Below are positions 1 to 8,720 of a stretch of DNA of 8,720 nucleotides, piece after piece (the first letter of the stretch is position 1; every line of letters starts with the position of its first letter). This DNA is from Candidatus Aerophobota bacterium (GTDB lineage: Bacteria > Aerophobota > Aerophobia > Aerophobales > B3-G15), in NCBI GenBank assembly GCA_030607765.1, contig JAUWJJ010000031.1:1-8720 (forward strand). Direction: 5' to 3'. The notes under the pieces were generated by a model that saw nothing but the letters and a program-made list of their open reading frames with translations, did no database searches and was not told the DNA's origin. Both the position numbers and the translations under genes were made by a program.

Positions 1-353
1 TTAAGCAAAATATGGTCCCAATATATAGGATAGGGTTTATCACAGCCCATCCCGGTTAAAAGTATACCACCACTCTCAGCTTGTTTGGTGATATTATTAA
101 TTACTTGAGCTGTCCAATTGGCATTAGCCTTAAATTCTGAAGGATTGTACCTTATAATAATTGCATCTGTTGGACAAAGTGTCTCGCAAAAATGGCAGCC
201 AACGCATCTCGTAGAATCACTATTTACCTCATCAAACTCTGGGTCATATGTATGGACATCATTGGAGCACATTCGACAACAGACTTGACACCTGATGCAC
301 TTATCATCATCCCGCTCCACTATAAACTCTGGACGAACCTTTGGTTTGGCCAT
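1..353 (-). CDS. gltB: Glutamate synthase, archaeal-type ferredoxin/FMN subunit (N-terminal part)
   Basis: This is the N-terminal 117 residues of a stand-alone glutamate synthase catalytic subunit, the part that uses ammonia released by an amidotransferase to aminate 2-oxoglutarate. Two [4Fe-4S] ferredoxin motifs are visible: C19-x2-C22-x2-C25-x3-C29, then C50-x2-C53-x2-C56-x3-C60-P. They are followed by the start of the FMN-binding synthase domain, with the stretch GGILLTGMGCDKPYPIYWDH at about residues 95-114. Family members of this type are around 500 aa, so most of the gene lies beyond the left edge. The ATG at 353 is preceded by a modest AGGA/GAAG site, and an in-frame TAG lies four codons upstream, so no earlier start is possible. 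The amidotransferase gene upstream supplies the glutaminase half. In this family electrons are expected from ferredoxin or an NAD(P)H partner. The first cluster lacks the usual Pro after its last Cys, a small deviation. A third subunit (the GXGXG domain) is expected outside the window. Confidence 0.88.
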   Translation of the reverse strand, partial: MAKPKVRPEFIVERDDDKCIRCQVCCRMCSNDVHTYDPEFDEVNSDSTRCVGCHFCETLCPTDAIIIRYNPSEFKANANWTAQVINNITKQAESGGILLTGMGCDKPYPIYWDHILL

Positions 354-587: not shown

Positions 588-1667
588 TTAATTTAGTTTT
601 GCTATAATTGCTTCACCTGCCTTAGGACTCCACACTCTATTCGGAAAAGAGCAAACTTCCCTTATCGCTGATTCCTCAGATGCAATATAAAGATTATCGC
701 CCTTGGTAGCAGCAACTAAAGGCCTTAGCTTAATTCTATCATTTAATCCCATCATTGTATCATTATTTGCTACAATGATAGAAAAAGGACCGTTAAGCAA
801 TGCACTTGCATAGATGATGCGCAGCATCTTAAAGATTTTTTGTTTATCCTTGTCCATCCTATCTATCTCATCCCAAAAAGGAGGAGCCAAGATATTGGTT
901 ACTGTTTCAAGAGATAAGTTATGTTTTCTCACTAAAAGATCAAAAAGATAGGTTATGACCTCAGTATCAGTAAAAAACGAACAGCGATATCCATAGTTTA
1001 AAAGAAACCTTCTATTTATCCCATAAGATGAAATTTCCCCATTGTGTACAACTGACCAACTCAAAAATCCAAAGGGATGTGCTCCACCCCACCAACCAAC
1101 AGTATTGGTAGGGAATCTACCATGAGCTATCCAGATGTATCCCTCGTACTCCTCTAATTTGTAAAATTTAGCTATATCCTTGGGATACCCTACTCCCTTG
1201 AATATGCCCATATTTTTGCCACTTGATGCTACAAATGCACCTTTAATTCGAGCATTTATGTTCACTATAGTTTTTGCCACAAAGTCTCCTTCCGTTAAAT
1301 CGTAATCCAGTTTTCTTCTTTTTTCCTTTGGCCGCAGGAAATACCTCCATAGAAGGGGTCTATATTTTATAGATTCAACCTCACGTGTGGGTATAAGCTC
1401 ATCTTTTTCAATGTTATAATTGTCCCTGAGATGATTCTCTGTCTCATTCATACTGGATCTGTTTTCATACATTATATGAAAACAGTAAAGGTTTTTAAAT
1501 TCTGGGTATATGCCATAGCCAGCAAATCCACCACCCAAGCCGTTGGCTCGCTCCCTCATAGAGGATATCATCTCAATGATATCCTTGCTCGAAAATCTCT
1601 TGCCGCTCTGGCTCATTACCCCAGCTATTCCACAACCACCTATCTGTTTTTCTCTAAATTCATTCAT
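588..1667 (-). CDS. Class II glutamine amidotransferase, glutaminase subunit of split glutamate synthase
   Basis: This is a 359-residue Ntn-type glutamine amidotransferase corresponding to the N-terminal domain of bacterial GltB. It should hydrolyse glutamine and pass ammonia to the synthase subunit encoded next. The nucleophile is Cys12 in GGCGIAG; the 11 residues before it would have to be removed as a propeptide, as in Bacillus PurF. Further family signatures are GRFPTNTVGWWGGAHPFG, then VHNGEISS (oxyanion and glutamine-binding Asn-Gly), then TDTEV, and SEESAIRE near the C-terminus. The start is uncertain. The reading frame is open from a TTG at 1679 and a GTG at 1676, but the ATG at 1667 is preferred because it gives the short propeptide and has a GGTG about six bases upstream. 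Only about 19 bp separate it from glnA, so the genes are probably cotranscribed. Function as a glutamate synthase subunit is inferred from family resemblance and context. Confidence 0.85.
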   Translation of the reverse strand: MNEFREKQIGGCGIAGVMSQSGKRFSSKDIIEMISSMRERANGLGGGFAGYGIYPEFKNLYCFHIMYENRSSMNETENHLRDNYNIEKDELIPTREVESIKYRPLLWRYFLRPKEKRRKLDYDLTEGDFVAKTIVNINARIKGAFVASSGKNMGIFKGVGYPKDIAKFYKLEEYEGYIWIAHGRFPTNTVGWWGGAHPFGFLSWSVVHNGEISSYGINRRFLLNYGYRCSFFTDTEVITYLFDLLVRKHNLSLETVTNILAPPFWDEIDRMDKDKQKIFKMLRIIYASALLNGPFSIIVANNDTMMGLNDRIKLRPLVAATKGDNLYIASEESAIREVCSFPNRVWSPKAGEAIIAKLN

Positions 1668-1686
1668 TAAAGACACCAAATCCGGG

Positions 1687-3018
1687 TTAAAGCATAGGAA
1701 ATAGTTTTTTCATTTCATATTCGGTTAATTGGATACGGTAATCCTCCCACTCCTTTTTTTTTAACTCGATAAGCCTTGAAAGGATATGATCACCCAGGGT
1801 CTTTTTAACAAGTTTACTTTGCTCACATATAGATATTGCCTCTCCTAAATTCCCCGGAAGGGATTCTATCCCTAACTCCTTTCTCTCCTCACCAGAGAGA
1901 TGATATAAGTTTTTCTCAATCGGCTCTGAAATCCCGTACTCCTTTTCTATTCCCTCTAATCCTGCATTGAGCATCACGGCAAAAGTAAGGTAAGGATTGC
2001 AGGATGGATCAGGGCATCTAAATTCTGCCCTGGTTGCCTTTTCTTTTCCCGGATAGTACTCTGGGACACGAATCAAGGCTGAGCGATTTCTCTTCGACCA
2101 GGCGATATAGATTGGTGCCTCATACCCTGGAATAAGCCTTTTATATGAATTTACCCATTGAGCAAAAATAAGGCTCATCTCAGGAGCATGTTTAAGCTCT
2201 CCAGCAATGAATTTTTTGCCCACATCGCTCAGATAATATTTATCATCCGGAGAAAAAAATACATTCTTATCTTTATTGAAGAGTGATTGATGGATATGCA
2301 TACCGCTTCCATTCTGGCCAAATAATGGCTTTGGCATAAAGGAAGCATACACCCCATACTTATGGGCTATTTCCTTAACCACGATTTTATAGGTAATGAC
2401 ATTATCGGCCATTGCCAGAACATCGGTGTATTTTATATCGATCTCGTGTTGACTTGGACCAACTTCATGGTGAGAATATTCAACGGGAATACTCATAGAT
2501 TCCAGGGCAAAGATTGTATCTCTGCGAAGGTCACTTGCCACATCCAGAGTGGTCAAATCGAAATATCCGCCCTTATCCAATGTCTCTGGAACCTGATCAT
2601 CCTTGAAATAAAAATACTCTATCTCTGGTCCAACATAGTAATGCTCAAAACCCATTTTTCTCATCCGTTTTAAGGCCCTTTTTAAGACATACCTTGGATC
2701 GCCTTCATAGGGCTGCTTTTCCGGAGTCAAGATGTCACATATCATTCGAGCAACTTTTCTTTCCTGGGGTCGCCAGGGAAGTATCTGAAAAGTAGTCGGA
2801 TCCGGGAAGGCTATCATATCGCTTTCCTCAATTGGCTGATAGCCAGTAATTGATGAGCCATCAAAGCCCATACCATTTTCCAATGCTCTTTTTAACTCCC
2901 CATCGGTAATGGCGAAACTCTTAACCTGGCCAAGAATATCTATGAACCATAACCTGATAAATTTGACACCCTTCTCTTTTGCTATCCTTAGCACATCTTC
3001 TTTAGTTTTTGTATTCAT
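1687..3018 (-). CDS. glnA: Glutamine synthetase, type I-alpha
   Basis: This gene encodes a 443-residue glutamine synthetase (ATP + glutamate + NH3 to glutamine), expected to form a cytosolic dodecamer. Active-site elements appear in order: the Asp loop FDGSSITGY (52-60), metal ligands E132 and E134 in GPEIEYF, E185 and E192 in HHEVGPSQHEID, H241 in NGSGMHIH, the flexible-loop Glu300 in PGYEAP, and E332/R334 in AEFRCPDPSCNPYL. The length matches the alpha subtype (Bacillus subtilis 444 aa) and there is no room for the insertion of the beta subtype. NLYHLSGEER at 370-379 has a Tyr at the place of the enterobacterial adenylylation site, but the surrounding motif is not the modified one. Arg62, needed for glutamine feedback inhibition and inter-subunit signalling in B. 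subtilis, is Pro62 here in a gap-free alignment of that region. The ATG is preceded by AAGGAG at a six-base spacing. The glnK gene lies 45 bp upstream. Confidence 0.97.
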   Translation of the reverse strand: MNTKTKEDVLRIAKEKGVKFIRLWFIDILGQVKSFAITDGELKRALENGMGFDGSSITGYQPIEESDMIAFPDPTTFQILPWRPQERKVARMICDILTPEKQPYEGDPRYVLKRALKRMRKMGFEHYYVGPEIEYFYFKDDQVPETLDKGGYFDLTTLDVASDLRRDTIFALESMSIPVEYSHHEVGPSQHEIDIKYTDVLAMADNVITYKIVVKEIAHKYGVYASFMPKPLFGQNGSGMHIHQSLFNKDKNVFFSPDDKYYLSDVGKKFIAGELKHAPEMSLIFAQWVNSYKRLIPGYEAPIYIAWSKRNRSALIRVPEYYPGKEKATRAEFRCPDPSCNPYLTFAVMLNAGLEGIEKEYGISEPIEKNLYHLSGEERKELGIESLPGNLGEAISICEQSKLVKKTLGDHILSRLIELKKKEWEDYRIQLTEYEMKKLFPML

Positions 3019-3063: not shown

Positions 3064-3402
3064 TTAGATTACGATTTCTCCTCTTTCCCCTGTTCTTATC
3101 CTTACTGCATCTTGCACCGGGATGATGAATATCTTTCCATCACCAATCTCACCTGTCTTTGCTGCAGTGGAAATAGCTTCTACAACATCTTCTACCTCTT
3201 TATCTTTAACCACAATTTCAACCTTCATCTTTGGTAAAAATTCTCGTTTGTATTGTCTGCCCCTGAACTGCTGAATCCTACCCTTTTGTTTTCCATGACC
3301 TTCCACATGGGATATCGTCAACCCAGGATAACCTATTTTCTTTAGTTGTTCTTTTACTTCATTGAATTTATTAACCCGCATTATCACTTCAATCTTCTTC
3401 AT
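3064..3402 (-). CDS. glnK: PII nitrogen signal protein GlnK
   Basis: This gene encodes a 112-residue PII protein, the trimer that senses 2-oxoglutarate and ATP/ADP and plugs the AmtB ammonium channel when nitrogen is plentiful. The core landmarks are MKKIEVIMR at the start, the Walker-like GHGKQKG (35-41), the T-loop RIQQFRGRQYKREFLPK containing Tyr51 (the uridylylation position in proteobacteria), and the C-terminal signatures TGEIGDGKIFIIPV and RIRTGERG. Three ATG codons stand in a row. The third is chosen because the AGGAGG site lies seven bases before it but only one base before the first; this start also gives the standard 112-residue length and puts the T-loop Tyr exactly at position 51. 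Coupling directly behind amtB is the classic arrangement and supports GlnK rather than a paralogue for another target. Whether Tyr51 is modified cannot be told; no uridylyltransferase gene is present here. Confidence 0.97.
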   Translation of the reverse strand: MKKIEVIMRVNKFNEVKEQLKKIGYPGLTISHVEGHGKQKGRIQQFRGRQYKREFLPKMKVEIVVKDKEVEDVVEAISTAAKTGEIGDGKIFIIPVQDAVRIRTGERGEIVI

Positions 3403-3409
3403 CATCATA

Positions 3410-3422: not shown

Positions 3423-4796
3423 TTACTCTTCAATAGAAATAAAATTAGGATAAGCACTTGTTCCATGCTCAACAATATCCAGACCCTGAAGTTCTTCCTC
3501 GGGAGAGACACGGATGCCGAAAGTCCTATCCATTACTTTAAAGACAAGATAACCCATACCAAAGGCCCAACCAGCGCACACTGCGGCACCAATTATCTGA
3601 GCAATCAACTGTCCCCAGCCCCCACCATAAAATAAGCCAGTGACATAGGGTAGCTCTAAGGAATAATTTCCATAGGTTCCATCAGCAAATAAGCCTAAAG
3701 CGATTAATCCCCAGATGCCATTTATACCGTGAACGCTCACTGCTCCCACTGGATCATCGATTCCCCGGGATTCGAGGAAAAGCACGCCTAATACCACCAA
3801 CACTCCAGCGATGAGACCAATTACCACTGCAGCCCAAGCCTCAACCCAGGCACAGGAAGCAGTAATAGCTACCAATCCTGCCAATGCACCGTTTAAAGTT
3901 ATACCCAGATCGTATTTTTTTGTCCTAAGAAATGTAATTACCATTGCTATAAAGGCTGCTGCAGCAGCTGCCAAATTGGTATTTGCTACAATTACAGAAA
4001 TTCTTAAATGATGAGCGGAGAGAGTGCTCCCCCCGTTAAATCCGAACCAACCAAACCAAAGGAGGAATGTTCCCAGAGTGGCTAAGGTCATACTGTGTCC
4101 AGGGATGGCTTGTGCTTTACCCTTTATGAACTTTCCAAAACGCGGGCCTAATACTATTGCTCCTGCTAAACCAACCATCCCTCCAATGGTGTGAACTATT
4201 CCTGAGCCAGCAAAATCCAAGTGTCCCATACCAAAGGGTAATTTGGAGAGCCAACCTCCACCCCAGACCCAATGACCATAAATAGGATAAATAACCGCAC
4301 TTATTACCACAGTATAGATAAGATAAGCCTTAAACTTAAGCCTTTCCGCCACTGCACCAGAAACGATAGTGGCCGCTGTAGCACAAAAGACAATTTCAAA
4401 CATATAAAGCAGATATCTACCCACATCATATTCCTTGCCCGCTAAAAACCAACCTGTTGTTCCAAATAATCCAGCTTTATCGACACCAAACATTAGAGCA
4501 AATCCCACTGCCCAATACACCAGAGAGCCGATAACATAGTCCATCGTATTTTTGGTCATAAGATTGGTAGCATTTTTGGCCCTGCAGAATCCCGCCTCTA
4601 CCATAGCAAATCCTGGCTGCATCAAGAACACCAAGAAAGCACAGATAAGAATCCAGACATAATCTACCGGAGCGCCTGGATTCACCCTGAGAGTCTCTAC
4701 TCCAACAGGGTCTCCTGCGGCGAAAGCCGCCAATGGAAATAGGATCAAGCACCCAGTTAATATCATTAATGCAGCTTTTCTTAGTTGTTTATACAT
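3423..4796 (-). CDS. amtB: Ammonium transporter Amt/AmtB
   Basis: This gene encodes a 457-residue inner-membrane ammonium channel. From the ATG at 4796 it begins with a signal-peptide-like segment (MYKQLRKAALMIL..., small residues AFA/AG near 24-28), followed by about eleven hydrophobic helices. Family motifs are EAGFCRAKNATN, the pore tryptophan in GHWVWGGGWL (W178), the DFAG aspartate (D194), and the twin pore histidines H202 (GIVHTIGG) and H357 (SVHGINGIWG). WFGFNGGS and the C-terminal tail EEELQGLDIVEHGTSAYP, which contacts PII, are also present. The frame is also open from a TTG at 4829 and an ATG at 4812-4814, but the TTG lies in the U-rich tail of a terminator hairpin. Only the 4796 ATG has a good ribosome site (AGGAAG, nine bases away) and gives a normal signal peptide. 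It is the first gene of the nitrogen operon, followed by glnK after about 20 bp. Confidence 0.96.
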   Translation of the reverse strand: MYKQLRKAALMILTGCLILFPLAAFAAGDPVGVETLRVNPGAPVDYVWILICAFLVFLMQPGFAMVEAGFCRAKNATNLMTKNTMDYVIGSLVYWAVGFALMFGVDKAGLFGTTGWFLAGKEYDVGRYLLYMFEIVFCATAATIVSGAVAERLKFKAYLIYTVVISAVIYPIYGHWVWGGGWLSKLPFGMGHLDFAGSGIVHTIGGMVGLAGAIVLGPRFGKFIKGKAQAIPGHSMTLATLGTFLLWFGWFGFNGGSTLSAHHLRISVIVANTNLAAAAAAFIAMVITFLRTKKYDLGITLNGALAGLVAITASCAWVEAWAAVVIGLIAGVLVVLGVLFLESRGIDDPVGAVSVHGINGIWGLIALGLFADGTYGNYSLELPYVTGLFYGGGWGQLIAQIIGAAVCAGWAFGMGYLVFKVMDRTFGIRVSPEEELQGLDIVEHGTSAYPNFISIEE

Positions 4797-4827: not shown

Positions 4828-4885
4828 AAAATAAAAGGGCGTCCAATCCATAAGCCTTACTTTGGCTGTTAAATTGGACGCCCTT
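4828..4885 (-). terminator. Intrinsic terminator (attenuator) in the amtB leader
   Basis: In the minus-strand transcript a perfect 13-bp stem is formed by AAGGGCGTCCAAT (4885-4873) and ATTGGACGCCCTT (4847-4835). It closes a 25-nt loop that contains a small inner AGCC/GGCT hairpin. The stem is followed at once by a U-rich tail (UUAUUUU). The amtB ribosome site and start lie only about 20-35 nt beyond, which leaves no room for another promoter. RNA polymerase must therefore read through this hairpin to express the operon, making it an attenuator rather than merely the end of the upstream sigma gene. Confidence 0.85.
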
Positions 4886-4956
4886 GCCCATTTCATTAAG
4901 CAACTATGCCTGTATTAAAATATTAAACGTTTTTCCTCATCGAACACCTTTGTTCG
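4875..4956 (-). promoter_or_regulatory. Candidate ANTAR-type antitermination RNA site of the amt-glnK-glnA-glt operon
   Basis: Three short hairpins line up before and into the terminator on the minus-strand RNA. The first (4956-4941) is CGAAC-AAAGGU-GUUCG. The second (4911-4898) is AGGC-AUAGUU-GCUU, containing one G-U pair. The third (4890-4875) is UGGGC-AAGGGC-GUCCA, also with one G-U pair. All three have six-base loops with A at position 1 and G at position 4, the known loop signature recognised by ANTAR-domain antiterminators such as EutV and NasR. Hairpins two and three are only seven bases apart. The third occupies most of the 5' arm of the terminator, so the two structures exclude each other, as in known ANTAR targets. 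The assignment is inference from structure; stems two and three are short, and no ANTAR gene is in the window. Confidence 0.6.
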
Positions 4957-4969
4957 TAATAGTTTAGCT

Positions 4970-4999
4970 TTTCTAAAATTTTCCTCTTTTCTCTGTCAA
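4970..4999 (-). promoter_or_regulatory. Possible promoter for the amtB operon
   Basis: A perfect -35 box TTGACA lies at 4999-4994 on the minus strand. The best -10 candidate is TAGAAA (4 of 6 matches) after 18 bases. Placed here, transcription would start just upstream of the leader hairpins and yield a leader of roughly 160 nt. The weak -10 keeps confidence low; read-through from the sigma gene's strong promoter is an alternative. Confidence 0.35.
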
Positions 5000-5075
5000 T
5001 TAAGAAGTAGCTGCCCAATTCATTGGGCGAATTTAATGTGCCGATAAATCGGCAAGCTACAGCTCGCAATGACGG
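4993..5075. repeat. Palindromic repeat element able to form a two-hairpin cruciform
   Basis: An outer stem GTAGCT (5007-5012) / AGCTAC (5055-5060) encloses two perfect hairpins: GCCCAAT-tc-ATTGGGC (5013-5028) and GCCGAT-aa-ATCGGC (5040-5053). The outer flanks are weakly inverted copies of each other: CTGTCA at 4993-4998 against TGACGG at 5070-5075, the latter within CTCGCAATGACGG. From memory, ends of the type CGTCATTGCGAG are common in dispersed palindromic repeats of many bacterial genomes, so this is probably a small non-coding mobile or REP-like element. The 5076-5183 stretch beside it, up to the sigma gene stop, shows no gene. Confidence 0.6.
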
Positions 5076-5183
5076 ATGTGTAGTTCCACATTTTTTTAGG
5101 AAAACTTACCTATTGCCTTTGTTCTAACTATAATAATGTACGCTCAATTATATAAAGTAAAAATCTCTCACTTTTGGTAACCT

Positions 5184-5693
5184 TTATCTTTTTACCTTTG
5201 CCTGACATTTCTTTACTATGCCTTGTTTCAATTTAACAATCCTTACATGAGAAACCCTCAATTTATATCCTACTTCTCTCACTGTGTAACCCTCTAACAA
5301 AAGAGAAAAGACATTTTTCTCCTTTTCTGAAAGCTCCCCTTTTACTTCCCCAAAGGTTAATTTTTTGTACCCATCCAAAGAATCTCTTTCATTATTACTC
5401 GGTAAAATGTCCCTTAATATACCTCCATTCTCATCAATAGGTGTCTCTAAGCTTAAAATCTTTATGTTATCTTTTGCTTTTCGAAGATAGTTTAATATAT
5501 GAAATTCACAACCTTTAATTATATAAACCTCATTCATATTTGCAGGTATCCCATCCTTAAAATTATTCCATAGATGAACCAACATCTCCTGATAAAGGTC
5601 TTCTTCGTCGACAAAAGAGACATAGCCTTTGTAGCGGCTAGATAACCGCTTTAACTTTGGCGATACTTTTTCAGATAATGCTTGAAAGTCCAT
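5184..5693 (-). CDS. Small sigma-70 family RNA polymerase sigma factor
   Basis: This gene encodes a 169-residue protein with the two-domain layout of small sigma factors. A region 2-like helical segment spans about residues 25-75 (FVDEEDLYQEMLVHLWNNF, then a segment with HILNYLRKAKD). After a linker, a region 4-like helix-turn-helix covers about 120-160 (LSEKEKNVFSLLLEGYTVREVGYKLRVSHVRIVKLKQG). It would direct RNA polymerase to a specific promoter set, or act as a sigma-like DNA-binding regulator; its targets are unknown. The ATG at 5693 is preferred: it follows a run of seven G five bases upstream and gives the compact start MDFQALSEKV. The frame is open further upstream, with a GTG at 5738 and an ATG at 5726, but that part overlaps a T-rich terminator-like element and would encode an unusual hydrophobic extension. 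No anti-sigma gene is adjacent. It precedes the amtB operon on the same strand, with about 390 bp between. Confidence 0.8.
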   Translation of the reverse strand: MDFQALSEKVSPKLKRLSSRYKGYVSFVDEEDLYQEMLVHLWNNFKDGIPANMNEVYIIKGCEFHILNYLRKAKDNIKILSLETPIDENGGILRDILPSNNERDSLDGYKKLTFGEVKGELSEKEKNVFSLLLEGYTVREVGYKLRVSHVRIVKLKQGIVKKCQAKVKR

Positions 5694-5710: not shown

Positions 5711-5784
5711 AAATAAAAAAAGGCATTCCCTCGCTCACCTTGCGTAGAAAACACCTTTGTTTTTTCGATACCGACTTTGTATCG
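5711..5784 (-). promoter_or_regulatory. Hairpin leader with possible attenuator before the sigma gene
   Basis: On the minus-strand RNA, a 6-bp hairpin CGATAC/GTATCG with the seven-base loop AAAGUCG (5784-5766) is followed two bases later by AAAAC-AAAGGU-GUUUU (5763-5748). The second loop has the same sequence as the first hairpin loop of the amtB leader. Downstream, UGCCUU followed by U-rich sequence (UUUUUAUUUU) at 5725-5711 could pair with AAGGUG at 5741-5736, or with AAAGGUG at 5758-5752 inside the second hairpin. Either pairing gives a weak terminator-like stem with two G-U pairs. The layout resembles the amtB leader, but P1 has a 7-base loop and the terminator stem is poor, so ANTAR control is only a possibility. 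Confidence 0.4.
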
Positions 5785-5890: not shown

Positions 5891-5918
5891 ATTATAATAT
5901 AAATTTGAGAGCTGTCAA
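5891..5918 (-). promoter_or_regulatory. Strong sigma-A type promoter for the sigma gene
   Basis: A perfect -35 TTGACA (5918-5913) and a perfect -10 TATAAT (5896-5891) are separated by 16 bp of AT-rich sequence. Transcription would start near 5884, leaving an untranslated leader of about 190 nt before the ATG at 5693. That length fits the hairpins seen there and suggests post-initiation control. Confidence 0.85.
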
Positions 5919-6132: not shown

Positions 6133-7065
6133 TTGAAGATAGGGATTCCCCGGGCTCTTTATTTTTTCAAGTATGGGAATATCTGGGAAAATTTCTTTAA
6201 AAAATTAGGCTGTGAGGTAACTATTTCTCCTCTCACTAACAAAAAAATACTGGAGGAGGGTATTAGCCTGGCTGTAGAGGAGGCTTGTATTCCCCTGAAG
6301 GTTTTCTATGGACATTGCAAGAGTTTAATGGGAAAGTGTGATTTTGTCTTTATTCCCCGCTACATAACCCTTGTGAAGGATACCTATACCTGCCCAAAGC
6401 ATCTGGTTTTACCTGATGTGACTAAATTCTTGCTGCCGAATCTACCTATTTTAACCACTTCCATCAAAGGAGAAAAAGGACCTGGTATCTCCCAACTTCT
6501 CTTTATGGGGGTGAGGATGTGGAAAAAAAGCCGCTGGCTGGAAGGAAAAAATTTCCTTAATGCAGCAAAGATGCAACGTATCTTCCGAGCAGTCCAGGAG
6601 GAAAGGAGGCAAAGGGAAAGTAAAACTCATCTTTATTCACTCCTTGACACCTCTAAACCTCGGGTAATGGTGGCAGGCCACCCCTACAATTTAAAAGATT
6701 CCTACATTAATCGGGACCTTTTAAAAAAACTGGATAGCCTGGGAGTTGAAGTTATCACTCCAGAGGAGGTTCCTTTTAATTTCATTCAGCACCAGCTTGA
6801 TGAGCTGCCCTTTATTTACTGGAGTGAAGAAAGAGAAATTGCAGGTTCTGCCTACTTTAGCTTAAAAGAGCCTTTGATACAGGGAATTATACTTGTTTCC
6901 AGTTTTGCCTGTGGTCCAGATTCTCTTGTTAGCGAGCAGATAATAAGAGATGCCCGGAAATTTGGCAAACCAGTGATGCAGTTATTTTTAGATGAGAATA
7001 CAAGTGATGTAAATATTCAAACAAGACTGGAAGCCTTTTTGGATATGCTGGAGAGAAAAAAATGA
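6133..7065 (+). CDS. 2-hydroxyacyl-CoA dehydratase activase-related protein (DUF2229/COG3580-like)
   Basis: This 310-residue protein belongs to the family found beside, or fused to, HgdC/BadF-type activases. The N-terminus MKIGIPRALYFFKYGNIWENFFKKLGCEVTISP is typical. Cysteines suited to iron-sulfur binding are C52 (EEACIPLK), C62, C69, C87 (TYTCPKH) and C260 (SFACGPDS); C52, C87 and C260 sit in the conserved family motifs. The C-terminus ends in LFLDENTSDVNIQTRLEAFLDML. By analogy with 2-hydroxyacyl-CoA dehydratases it may bind a [4Fe-4S] cluster and receive electrons from the ATPase encoded third in the operon, but no substrate is known. The start is TTG. The stop overlaps the next ATG (ATGA), so translation is coupled. 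The next gene shares the C-terminal motif and is a distant paralogue. Confidence 0.8.
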   Translation: MKIGIPRALYFFKYGNIWENFFKKLGCEVTISPLTNKKILEEGISLAVEEACIPLKVFYGHCKSLMGKCDFVFIPRYITLVKDTYTCPKHLVLPDVTKFLLPNLPILTTSIKGEKGPGISQLLFMGVRMWKKSRWLEGKNFLNAAKMQRIFRAVQEERRQRESKTHLYSLLDTSKPRVMVAGHPYNLKDSYINRDLLKKLDSLGVEVITPEEVPFNFIQHQLDELPFIYWSEEREIAGSAYFSLKEPLIQGIILVSSFACGPDSLVSEQIIRDARKFGKPVMQLFLDENTSDVNIQTRLEAFLDMLERKK

Positions 7066-8150
7066 ACCCTATTTTTACCTCTCCCCATATGGGTAACACC
7101 TATATTGCGATGAAAGCTTTTCTGGAAACTATGGAGTGCAGGTATTTACCTCCTCCTCCCACTTCCAGAAGAACAATTGAGCTTGGTGTTAAATACAGCC
7201 CTGAGTTTGCCTGTTTCCCCTACAAGGTCACCCTGTGTAATATGATTGAGGGCCTGGAGGGGGGAGCTAATATTATCTTAATGGCGGCAGGTAAAAAAGG
7301 ACTTTGTCGGCTGGCTTACTATCATATCCTCCAGGAAAAGACCCTTAAAGACCTGGGTTTTAACTTTGAGATGGTAGGATTAGGGGAAAACATCTGGGAT
7401 GTTCTTTTTCATAAATTAAAGCTTTGTTCAGCCAATCCCTCTCATCATCTACACAGATTAATAAAAGCTGCCAGGATTACCTTCAAAAAGCTGAAGCTCA
7501 TTGAAGAAGTGGAAAACCGCGCCAGAGAAACCCGTCCCTATGAGATTGAAAAGGTAGAAACCAGTAAGGTTTACCAGATATCCCTTAAATTGATAGAAGA
7601 GGCAAGAACTTTATCTCAGCTCAGGAAAGTTAAAAAGAAGATAGATGTTCTCTTTTCCTCTATACCAAAAGATACTAAAAGGGATGTTTTAAAAATGGTA
7701 CTGGTAGGGGAGTTTTTCTGCTGTCTTGAACCGGTAGTTTCTCACCATATAGAAACCATTCTGGGAGATCTGGGAACTGTGGTTAAGCAAAATATGAGCT
7801 CTTATCGGCTGGCTAAAGGCTTTCTATTTCCCGACCTTAAAAAGTGGTGGCTTAATCACTTTGTGGTGAGAAAGTATCTTAAATACAGCGGAGGGGGAGA
7901 AGAAAGAAGAAGTTTAGGGGAGGCGGAAGTTTACGCTAAAAGAGGCTATGATGGGGTTATCGCCTTAAGGCCCTTTACCTGTCTTCCAGAAAACACGGCC
8001 GAGGCTATATTTCCCCATTTAAGCAGGAAATTTAAGATTCCTGTTTTAAGCTTCTCCCTTGATGAGAATTTTTCCGAGGTCAATATGCTCACCCGAATAG
8101 AATCATTTGTGGATATGCTGAGGAGGAAAAGAAATGTTTCTGGGAATTGA
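7062..8150 (+). CDS. Activase-associated CoA dehydratase-like protein (COG3581-like)
   Basis: This is a 362-residue partner of the preceding protein. The N-terminal part has SPHMGNTYIAMKAFLE and GVKYSPEFACFPYKVTLCN, with C51 in a position typical of the family, plus C59 and C82 (GKKGLCRLAYY). A middle helical, Lys/Glu-rich segment (about 130-215) is followed by EFFCCLEPVVSHHIE (C220/C221), RPFTCLPENTAEAI (C307) and a C-terminal LDENFSEVNMLTRIESFVDMLRRK. This tail is nearly the same as in the upstream protein, which points to ancient duplication. The ATG overlaps the previous stop and has GGAGAG a few bases upstream. Its own last 17 bases overlap the start of the ATPase gene. Its role is probably an iron-sulfur subunit of a complex energised by the downstream activase; the reaction is unknown. 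Confidence 0.8.
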   Translation: MNPIFTSPHMGNTYIAMKAFLETMECRYLPPPPTSRRTIELGVKYSPEFACFPYKVTLCNMIEGLEGGANIILMAAGKKGLCRLAYYHILQEKTLKDLGFNFEMVGLGENIWDVLFHKLKLCSANPSHHLHRLIKAARITFKKLKLIEEVENRARETRPYEIEKVETSKVYQISLKLIEEARTLSQLRKVKKKIDVLFSSIPKDTKRDVLKMVLVGEFFCCLEPVVSHHIETILGDLGTVVKQNMSSYRLAKGFLFPDLKKWWLNHFVVRKYLKYSGGGEERRSLGEAEVYAKRGYDGVIALRPFTCLPENTAEAIFPHLSRKFKIPVLSFSLDENFSEVNMLTRIESFVDMLRRKRNVSGN

Positions 8151-8720
8151 CGTTGGTTCAGTTACTACCAAAGCGGTGATATTAAATAAGAGAAAAGAAG
8201 TTGTGGACAAGGTGTATCTTCTCACTCAGGGTTCTCCAATCCAGGCCATCAAATCTTGCCTAAGCAAATTAAAAAACCCACTCTTAGGAAATAAAATTAA
8301 AGCAGCAGGTGCCACCGGAAGTGGCAGAAGATTAGCCCAGGTAGTAGCGGGAGTGGATGTGGTGAAAAATGAGATCACCGCTCAGGCTGTTGCCGCTTTA
8401 GATACCAATTCCCTGGTTCAAACTGTAATTGAAATTGGAGGACAGGATAGTAAAATAATTATTATACGTCAGGGGGTAGTAATTAACTTTGCTATGAACA
8501 CCCTTTGTGCAGCTGGCACTGGTTCTTTCCTGGATCATCAGGCCAGAAGGATAAATATTTCTATTGAGGAATTTGGGAAATTAGCCCTTACCTCCAGGAA
8601 TAGAGTAAGTATCTCCGGACGATGCACCGTTTTTGCTGAATCGGATATGATTCAAAAAGCTCAGTTAGGATACGCCAAAGAGGACATCATCAGAGGATTG
8701 TGCGAAGCTTTAGTGCGTAA
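8134..8720 (+). CDS. BadF/BadG/HgdC-family ATPase, acyl-CoA dehydratase activase (5' part)
   Basis: The first 195 residues are visible; the gene runs off the right edge. It belongs to the ASKHA-fold activases that use ATP hydrolysis to drive a low-potential electron from a bridging [4Fe-4S] cluster into a partner dehydratase or reductase. Visible motifs are phosphate-1 GIDVGSVTTK (4-13), GATGSGRRLA (59-68) and EIGGQDSK (100-107). The two cluster cysteines are C125 in NTLCAAGTGSFLD and C164 in GRCTVFAES. Their 39-residue spacing equals that of C127/C166 in Acidaminococcus HgdC. The ATG is preceded by AGGAGG seven bases upstream and overlaps the end of the previous gene by 17 bp. Context suggests it energises the two upstream proteins rather than a classical HgdAB pair, which is not seen here. 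Confidence 0.92.
   Translation, partial: MFLGIDVGSVTTKAVILNKRKEVVDKVYLLTQGSPIQAIKSCLSKLKNPLLGNKIKAAGATGSGRRLAQVVAGVDVVKNEITAQAVAALDTNSLVQTVIEIGGQDSKIIIIRQGVVINFAMNTLCAAGTGSFLDHQARRINISIEEFGKLALTSRNRVSISGRCTVFAESDMIQKAQLGYAKEDIIRGLCEALVR

Follow-up and report, generated by a model that had tools for sequence, protein, structure and literature searches.

The 8,720-nt stretch of DNA analyzed here, referred to as the window, probably carries a nitrogen-assimilation module with two nested layers of control, in which an ECF-like sigma factor gene lies behind an ANTAR-type attenuator of its own and a second ANTAR-type leader precedes the amt-glnK-glnA-GOGAT operon. The hairpins, terminators and promoter-like motif described below, as well as family membership, co-occurrence and covariation, are observed directly in the sequences. 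A previous sequence-only reading of this DNA had proposed that one ANTAR antitermination switch controls the whole amt operon. The ANTAR part of that proposal is supported by the loops, covariation and ANTAR genes of relatives, but the idea of one switch is not, because the sigma gene has its own, better-scoring ANTAR attenuator and a sigma-linked motif precedes the amt leader.

The operon order amt-glnK-glnA-glutamate synthase given in that reading agrees with our Pfam analysis, which identified amt-glnK-glnA-GATase-4Fe-4S protein, all encoded on the minus strand:

3423-4796, minus strand: amt, ammonium transporter (PF00909)
3064-3408, minus strand: glnK, PII protein (PF00543)
1687-3018, minus strand: glnA, glutamine synthetase type I (PF00120, PF03951)
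588-1679, minus strand: glutamate synthase amidotransferase subunit (PF00310 and homologue names)
3-353, minus strand: 4Fe-4S N-terminal part of a protein, cut by the window end (Fer4 matches)

The start of amt is best placed at the ATG at 4796, 38 nt past the terminator stem of its leader, because a 99%-identical homologue (P0001) is 457 amino acids long. The product of the ORF at 3-353 is presumably the ferredoxin-type glutamate synthase subunit (GOGAT), which we assign by position. On the plus strand of the window (6133-8718), divergently oriented genes encode proteins of the 2-hydroxyglutaryl-CoA dehydratase type and an activase ATPase of the BadF/BcrA type. Among the matches listed, the five best organism-named homologues of the glutamate synthase subunit were all from Omnitrophota, as were 8 of the 9 organism-named homologues of the sigma factor, and the organism names of the Amt homologues were mixed. 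The best four Amt loci by E-value (65-69% identity) belong to two Omnitrophota genomes, one Thermodesulfobacteriales genome and one Caldatribacterium genome. The DNA thus probably stems from an Omnitrophota-like bacterium.

The leader of amt harbors a terminator-proximal attenuator composed of two hairpins with A at position 1 and G at position 4 of a hexaloop (A1/G4), followed by an intrinsic terminator:

4898-4911, minus strand: P1, aggc-ATAGTT-gctt, 4 bp including one G-U (hairpin scan and covariance model)
4875-4890, minus strand: P2, tgggc-AAGGGC-gtcca, 5 bp including one G-U (hairpin scan and covariance model)
4835-4885, minus strand: intrinsic terminator overlapping P2 (fold; P2-plus-terminator unit at 4885)

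The 13-bp terminator with a U-rich tail and the three A1/G4 hexaloop hairpins reported earlier were all recovered on the minus strand, the former at 4885-4835 and the latter at 4956-4941, 4911-4898 and 4890-4875. In the terminator, AAGGGCGTCCAAT pairs with ATTGGACGCCCTT over 13 bp and is followed by TTATTTT, the tail becoming TTTTATTTT if the last two stem bases are counted in; its minimum-energy fold has 16 bp (z -5.9, with none of 200 shuffles as good), and the fold of the whole leader has a z of -4.9. The 5' arm of the terminator starts inside the loop of the third hairpin (4890-4875) and consumes the 3' arm of that hairpin, and the two folds are therefore mutually exclusive, an arm overlap that the earlier reading had correctly noted. 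The leader contains the two hairpins of at least 3 bp with A1/G4 hexaloops that define a dual-hairpin target, and their linker of 7 nt falls inside the eut rule of about 5-12 nt. Its weak points are the 4-bp stem of P1 with a G-U pair and the second closing pair of the hairpin pair, which is not the A-U common elsewhere. With a stem of at least 4 bp and at least two G-C pairs required, the minus strand of the 8.7-kb window has four A1/G4 hairpins in total, three of them in the amt leader, and the plus strand has another four.

Upstream of amt, we identified a gene preceded by a similar arrangement and followed by a promoter-like motif:

5891-5918, minus strand: sigma70-type promoter before the sigma gene, TTGACA-16-TATAAT (matching the consensus at 12 of 12 positions)
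5766-5784, minus strand: P1 of the sigma-gene attenuator, CGATAC-AAAGTC(G)-GTATCG (within the best covariance-model match)
5748-5763, minus strand: P2 of the sigma-gene attenuator, AAAAC-AAAGGT-GTTTT (covariance model; A1/G4 loop)
5719-5758, minus strand: sigma-leader terminator with TTTTATTTT behind it, its 5' arm originating inside the P2 loop (P2-plus-terminator unit at 5758)
5184-5693, minus strand: ECF-like sigma-70 family factor gene, 169 amino acids (TIGR02937, structure model)
5154-5181, minus strand: putative promoter of the ECF-like sigma factor, GTTACC-N15-TTACTTT (motif match, co-occurrence)

The gene at 5693-5184 is predicted to encode an ECF-like sigma factor. All 25 aligned members of its family match TIGR02937 at E<=0.01 (the window member scores 42.0 bits for a cut-off of 42.9), and Sigma70_r2, Sigma70_r4 and GerE HTH domains were detected in 17, 12 and 24 of the 25, respectively. 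The structure model (pLDDT 80, pTM 0.45) matches PDB sigma factors with a best E-value of 2e-5 and poor global superposition. The TTGACA-16-TATAAT site is the best of 22 sites found, and shuffled sequences yield 21.4 sites of any grade. In the sigma leader, as in the amt leader, P2 overlaps and excludes the terminator. The sigma-leader P1 has a hexaloop only with one bulged G, and a 7-nt loop otherwise, and the P1-P2 linker of only 2 nt falls outside the eut rule. Within 260 nt upstream of the sigma gene, 30 relatives together have 47 A1/G4 hairpins versus 3-16 for each of 15 other loops, and 22 of the 30 leaders have a P2-plus-terminator unit; ANTAR control of the sigma gene thus looks conserved across relatives.

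A covariance model (R1), built from 17 dual hairpins of relatives with the window excluded and run on both strands of the window without filters, gave 13 matches at E<=10 (E-values are rough). Its four top-scoring matches fall within leaders of this locus: the sigma leader (5782-5749; 27.0 bits, E 9.7e-5), which is the sole individually significant match, the amt-leader pair (4911-4876; 13.8 bits, E 0.085), and matches at 4976-4942 (13.4 bits, E 0.1) and 5141-5102 (7.9 bits, E 1.7). By this model the amt pair, where an ANTAR target had been proposed earlier, falls short of significance when taken alone. An Rfam scan of the window at E<=10 returned six unrelated chance-level matches and no ANTAR match; Rfam may lack a family for such targets.

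The putative promoter begins 2 nt past the sigma stop codon, and the motif co-occurs strongly with the sigma family. The motif GTTACC-N15-TTACTTG is present in 90 of 384 Omnitrophota genomes and the sigma family in 115, with both in 74 (Fisher p 2e-33, uncorrected for kinship among genomes, which the covariation statistics given below likewise ignore); read backwards, the motif is found in 17 of 384 genomes, 5 of them with the sigma family. A sigma gene was not detected in 16 of the 90 motif genomes. Among the 115 sigma genomes we examined 30 sigma loci, and in 26 of them GTTAC-N16-TTACT lies near the end of the sigma gene. The sigma proteins of relatives (for example L197, L200, L213, L214, L215) often end in GYQK or GYQN, which a box of the GGTTACCAAAA type would encode; in relatives, the last codons of the sigma gene and the upstream box of the motif apparently overlap. 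Beyond Omnitrophota, the sigma family was found at E<=1e-15 in 4 of 50 genomes from the phylum of G004, 0 of 8 from that of G010 and 1 of 99 from that of G003, and GTTACC-N15-TTACTT occurs in none of the five sigma-family loci from outside Omnitrophota. One of these loci, L371 (from one of 99 genomes in the phylum of the Thermodesulfobacteriales relative), has a sigma-family match with E 8e-60 and no motif in its locus; we read it as transfer or contamination.

The stretches behind the motif are rich in ANTAR-type elements. Counted over 169 motif sites (which include the window, scored as a miss in both counts because the insert described below shifts its leader past the scanned stretch), an A1/G4 hairpin follows within 200 nt at 124 sites versus 16.6% of random 200-mers, and two or more follow at 61 sites versus 2.0%. 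A P2-plus-terminator unit follows within 240 nt at 104 sites versus 4.8% of random 240-mers, and 27 sites have two or more; 45 sites are without an A1/G4 hairpin and 65 without a unit. Hairpin totals after these sites are 199 for A1/G4 versus 19 to 90 for eight other loops (G1/G4 being the one with 90), and unit totals are 136 versus 2 to 63 (G1/G4 again the highest, with 63). The genes that follow are amt (43), GS-III (27), GS-I (17), Fis-HTH (16), glnK (12), porin (10) and others (43), with one cut. The small Fis-HTH gene precedes GOGAT in several loci. In several relatives, among them L330 (533-907) and L344 (2607-2984), a small protein is encoded between the ANTAR leader and GOGAT, the one in L344 having a Fis-type HTH (PF02954), and it is possible that this protein is a further regulator.

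An alternative, which we consider unlikely but the strongest of those weighed, is that control resides in the RNA layer only, the motif serving as the site of an activator that works alongside the housekeeping sigma factor, with the sigma gene as a passenger. TTAC does occur twice in the motif, at a distance of 20 nt, and may form a direct repeat; TATAAT follows the motif in the window, and TA-N4-T appears in the logo. The logo of 122 sites reads gGTTACCARAA and then TTTTTACTTGTA, where GTTACC, TTACTT and largely the following G are fixed by site selection and the flanking A, T and TA positions are free. Against an activator site stand the TTACTTGTA block and the finding that no housekeeping-type -10 hexamer is conserved in these 122 sites, in which the TA after TTACTTG was not selected for. 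The strong co-occurrence of the motif with the sigma family and its place near the sigma gene end likewise argue for a promoter of the sigma factor.

The sequence-only reading had regarded the additional hairpin upstream of the amt attenuator as unusual for the two-hairpin rule. It need not be an exception, as it matches the P2 of the first of two consecutive attenuators in relatives. The elements concerned are:

4941-4956, minus strand: extra hairpin, cgaac-AAAGGT-gttcg, read as P2 of the first attenuator (hairpin scan, covariance model, comparative layout)
5126-5141, minus strand: putative decayed P1 of the first amt-leader attenuator (the weak R1 match at 5141-5102, comparative layout)
4916-4949, minus strand: putative decayed terminator T1 of the first attenuator (by-eye comparison with L164)
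4956-5115, minus strand: 160-bp MITE-like insert (terminal inverted and direct repeats)

In 13 leaders of relatives located behind the sigma gene, which were picked for widely spaced hairpins and are not a random sample, we recognized by eye the layout P1-P2-T1-P2'-T2, with some loops off consensus (G1 in L306, irregular in L312 and L342). The window shows a P1-like remnant at 5141, the extra hairpin in the place of P2, a T1 remnant, and then P1'-P2'-T2. The T1 remnant was not detected as a unit in the P2-plus-terminator scan. The insert has 21-bp terminal inverted repeats (5114-5094 and 4978-4958; 17 of 21 identical) with a score of 22, whereas 1000 mononucleotide shuffles reach 21 at most. 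On its two sides stand copies of a 9-bp direct repeat, GAACAAAGG, at 5124-5116 and at 4955-4947; the window contains two copies where 0.12 would be expected. The insert therefore resembles a MITE whose insertion into P2 produced a target-site duplication. Blastn found no further copy among the fetched loci, with matches of only 15-26 nt. Within the insert (window 4956-5115) lies CGTCATTGCGAGC, an intergenic repeat of wide distribution, together with a terminator-like hairpin on the plus strand at 5012-5029. The R1 match at 4976-4942, which combines the extra hairpin with a pentaloop hairpin in the right inverted repeat of the insert, was taken as coincidental. Based on this comparison, the extra hairpin is best read as the P2 of a decayed upstream attenuator split by the MITE-like insert.

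It is also conceivable, and in our view improbable, that the three hairpins of the amt leader act jointly as a multi-dimer or alternative-partner ANTAR target for which the extra hairpin is still needed. The 5-bp stem of this intact hairpin is perfectly paired, its closing pairs are AC/GU, and hairpins about 50 nt apart also occur in relatives. It lies, however, 29 and 50 nt from the other two, and in eutP linkers of 3 or 14 nt lower induction drastically (PMC3369931); moreover, its own P1 and terminator look decayed. Given the P1-P2-T1-P2'-T2 layout of relatives, we judged this reading less likely than a decayed first attenuator and kept it as a rival.

The RNA element itself is well represented in relatives. 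We scanned both strands of 65 loci (659 kb in all, the window among them, with L183/L184 and L176/L177 as near-duplicates) for paired hexaloop hairpins overlapped by a terminator. Such arrangements occur at 25 sites with A1/G4 loops versus 0-6 sites for each of 15 other loop pairs, and the mapped gene downstream, where present, is amt, glnK or glnA, some sites being without one. The sequence-only reading had also proposed covariation of the hairpins as a check, and stem covariation was found in relatives. At 280 C-A..G..-G sites after the motif, chosen by loop and closing pair only and with the window excluded, pairs 2, 3, 4 and 5 are paired in 86, 86, 65 and 45% versus 70, 43, 52 and 41% in shuffled sequences, the sites coming from related genomes and not being independent; pairs 2-4 lie above every one of 500 shuffles and pair 5 does not lie above the shuffles. 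Pair 3 is represented by CG (92), AT (77), GC (28), GT (24) and TA (12). Seven control loops were compared with these: C-T..G..-G, with 39 sites, shows pairing in 59-69%, and most of the others show less. The high covariation of A2 was dropped as evidence because its rows had been selected for pairing, which makes it circular. Taken across relatives, the enriched A1/G4 loops and covarying stems, mostly before amt, PII, GS and GOGAT genes, indicate that the element is real.

Some variation of the element should be noted. The P1-P2 linker is longer than 12 nt in several relatives, and the long linkers of L143 (12233-12280), L161 (9138-9189) and L162 (3412-3364) share a central AGGC; by hand count, long linkers form two classes with loop-to-loop distances of about 16-23 nt and 29-36 nt. 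The second hairpins before the second terminators of L138 (about 7950), L140 (about 7750) and L148 (about 1190) have, by eye, YAAGRC loops (pyrimidine at position 1, G at position 4), and the A1/G4 rule may be relaxed at loop position 1 in Omnitrophota.

An ANTAR protein, on which the antitermination reading depends, is encoded by many relatives: PF03861 was detected in 284 of 384 Omnitrophota genomes versus 0 of 14 control genomes, counts that come from relatives, the window's own genome lying outside the sample. Among 11 genomes searched, PF03861 is present in 4, which are those of the best four Amt loci. It was not found in the remaining seven, L005 (Amt 65%) and L019 (70% over part of the protein) among them. 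An ANTAR gene is found in 108 of 115 sigma genomes versus 176 of 269 other genomes, and of 28 ANTAR-sigma pairs on one contig, picked by eye among the matches listed, 24 lie within 3 kb. Gene orders in relatives include ANTAR-glnA, glnA-sigma and ANTAR-sigma, and for each of G397 and G229, two loci taken together give the order ANTAR-glnA-sigma, beyond which amt is located. The ANTAR proteins examined have a GAF-ANTAR architecture in the two Omnitrophota and Caldatribacterium and a receiver-ANTAR architecture in Thermodesulfobacteriales. The GAF parts match PtsP-type (PRK11061) and NifA models far below cut-offs, hints that may point to nitrogen or carbon status as the signal. An ordinary terminator, or an unregulated attenuator whose hexaloops arose by chance, with no ANTAR control in either case, would agree with the amt pair's lack of significance with R1 but is very improbable in view of the A1/G4 enrichment, the stem covariation and the ANTAR gene distribution in relatives.

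From these features we infer ANTAR binding, promoter recognition by the sigma factor, the order of events and a nitrogen signal. A housekeeping promoter would transcribe the sigma gene through its ANTAR-type attenuator, and by default, with no signal, both leaders would form terminators. An active ANTAR protein would bind the paired A1/G4 hexaloops of P1 and P2, P2 would block the terminator, and the sigma factor would be made. The sigma factor would then use GTTACC-N15-TTACTT behind its own gene to transcribe amt-glnK-glnA-GOGAT, and the same ANTAR protein would let polymerase through the second terminator, in the amt leader; one protein acting at both steps would constitute a coherent feed-forward switch. 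In the window, the first unit of this leader would have decayed and been interrupted by the MITE-like insert, leaving the extra hairpin and then P1-P2-terminator before amt. For many Omnitrophota, we give about even chances to the broader proposal that one GAF-ANTAR sensor gates the ECF-like sigma factor and its regulon twice, via attenuators on the sigma mRNA and on all of its target operons.

The locus resembles the GnfK/GnfR nitrogen-fixation cascade of Geobacter sulfurreducens, in which an ANTAR-type response regulator acts on the leaders of nitrogen genes. The input of that cascade is a two-component sensor kinase/response regulator, whereas relatives here have GAF-ANTAR proteins, and it is not known to include a dedicated ECF sigma factor. 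Like ECF sigma factors of the TIGR02937 superfamily, the predicted sigma factor is small, has regions 2 and 4, is associated with a two-box promoter-like motif and is encoded next to its putative targets; unlike them, it is apparently controlled by RNA attenuation of its own mRNA, and no anti-sigma-like ORF lies beside its gene in the window among ORFs of at least 80 amino acids.

Two short A1/G4 hexaloop hairpins, the second overlapping an intrinsic terminator, are also found in EutV/eut, NasR/nasF and AmiR/amiE (PMC3369931), and the closing pairs are important in eut. Published work already describes ANTAR elements in front of PII, amt, GS and glutamate synthase genes, several per transcription unit, with predicted nitrogen regulons in Desulfotomaculum and Pelobacter that share these targets and this multiplicity with the present locus, D. 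acetoxidans having 13 elements in six units (PMC3369931). By contrast with these systems, a GAF-ANTAR architecture, a configuration uncharacterised at the time of PMC3369931, is found in three of the four proteins examined in relatives, and the sigma gene itself is under apparent ANTAR control, with its putative promoter preceding target leaders. Among the titles and abstract beginnings listed for open-licence PMC papers, none reports that ANTAR controls a sigma factor or that a sigma factor is combined with ANTAR leaders, and no open-licence PMC paper was found that treats ANTAR and Omnitrophota together.

If the proposal is true, this would be the first ANTAR-controlled sigma factor, as far as the open-licence papers searched show. 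It would provide a specific promoter motif (GTTACC-N15-TTACTTG), a defined target RNA and a GAF-ANTAR sensor of the one-component kind, so that GAF-ANTAR function would become testable in vitro. An uncultured phylum would then run its central nitrogen control via an RNA-attenuated sigma factor, a route that may replace sigma54/NtrC control of nitrogen genes.
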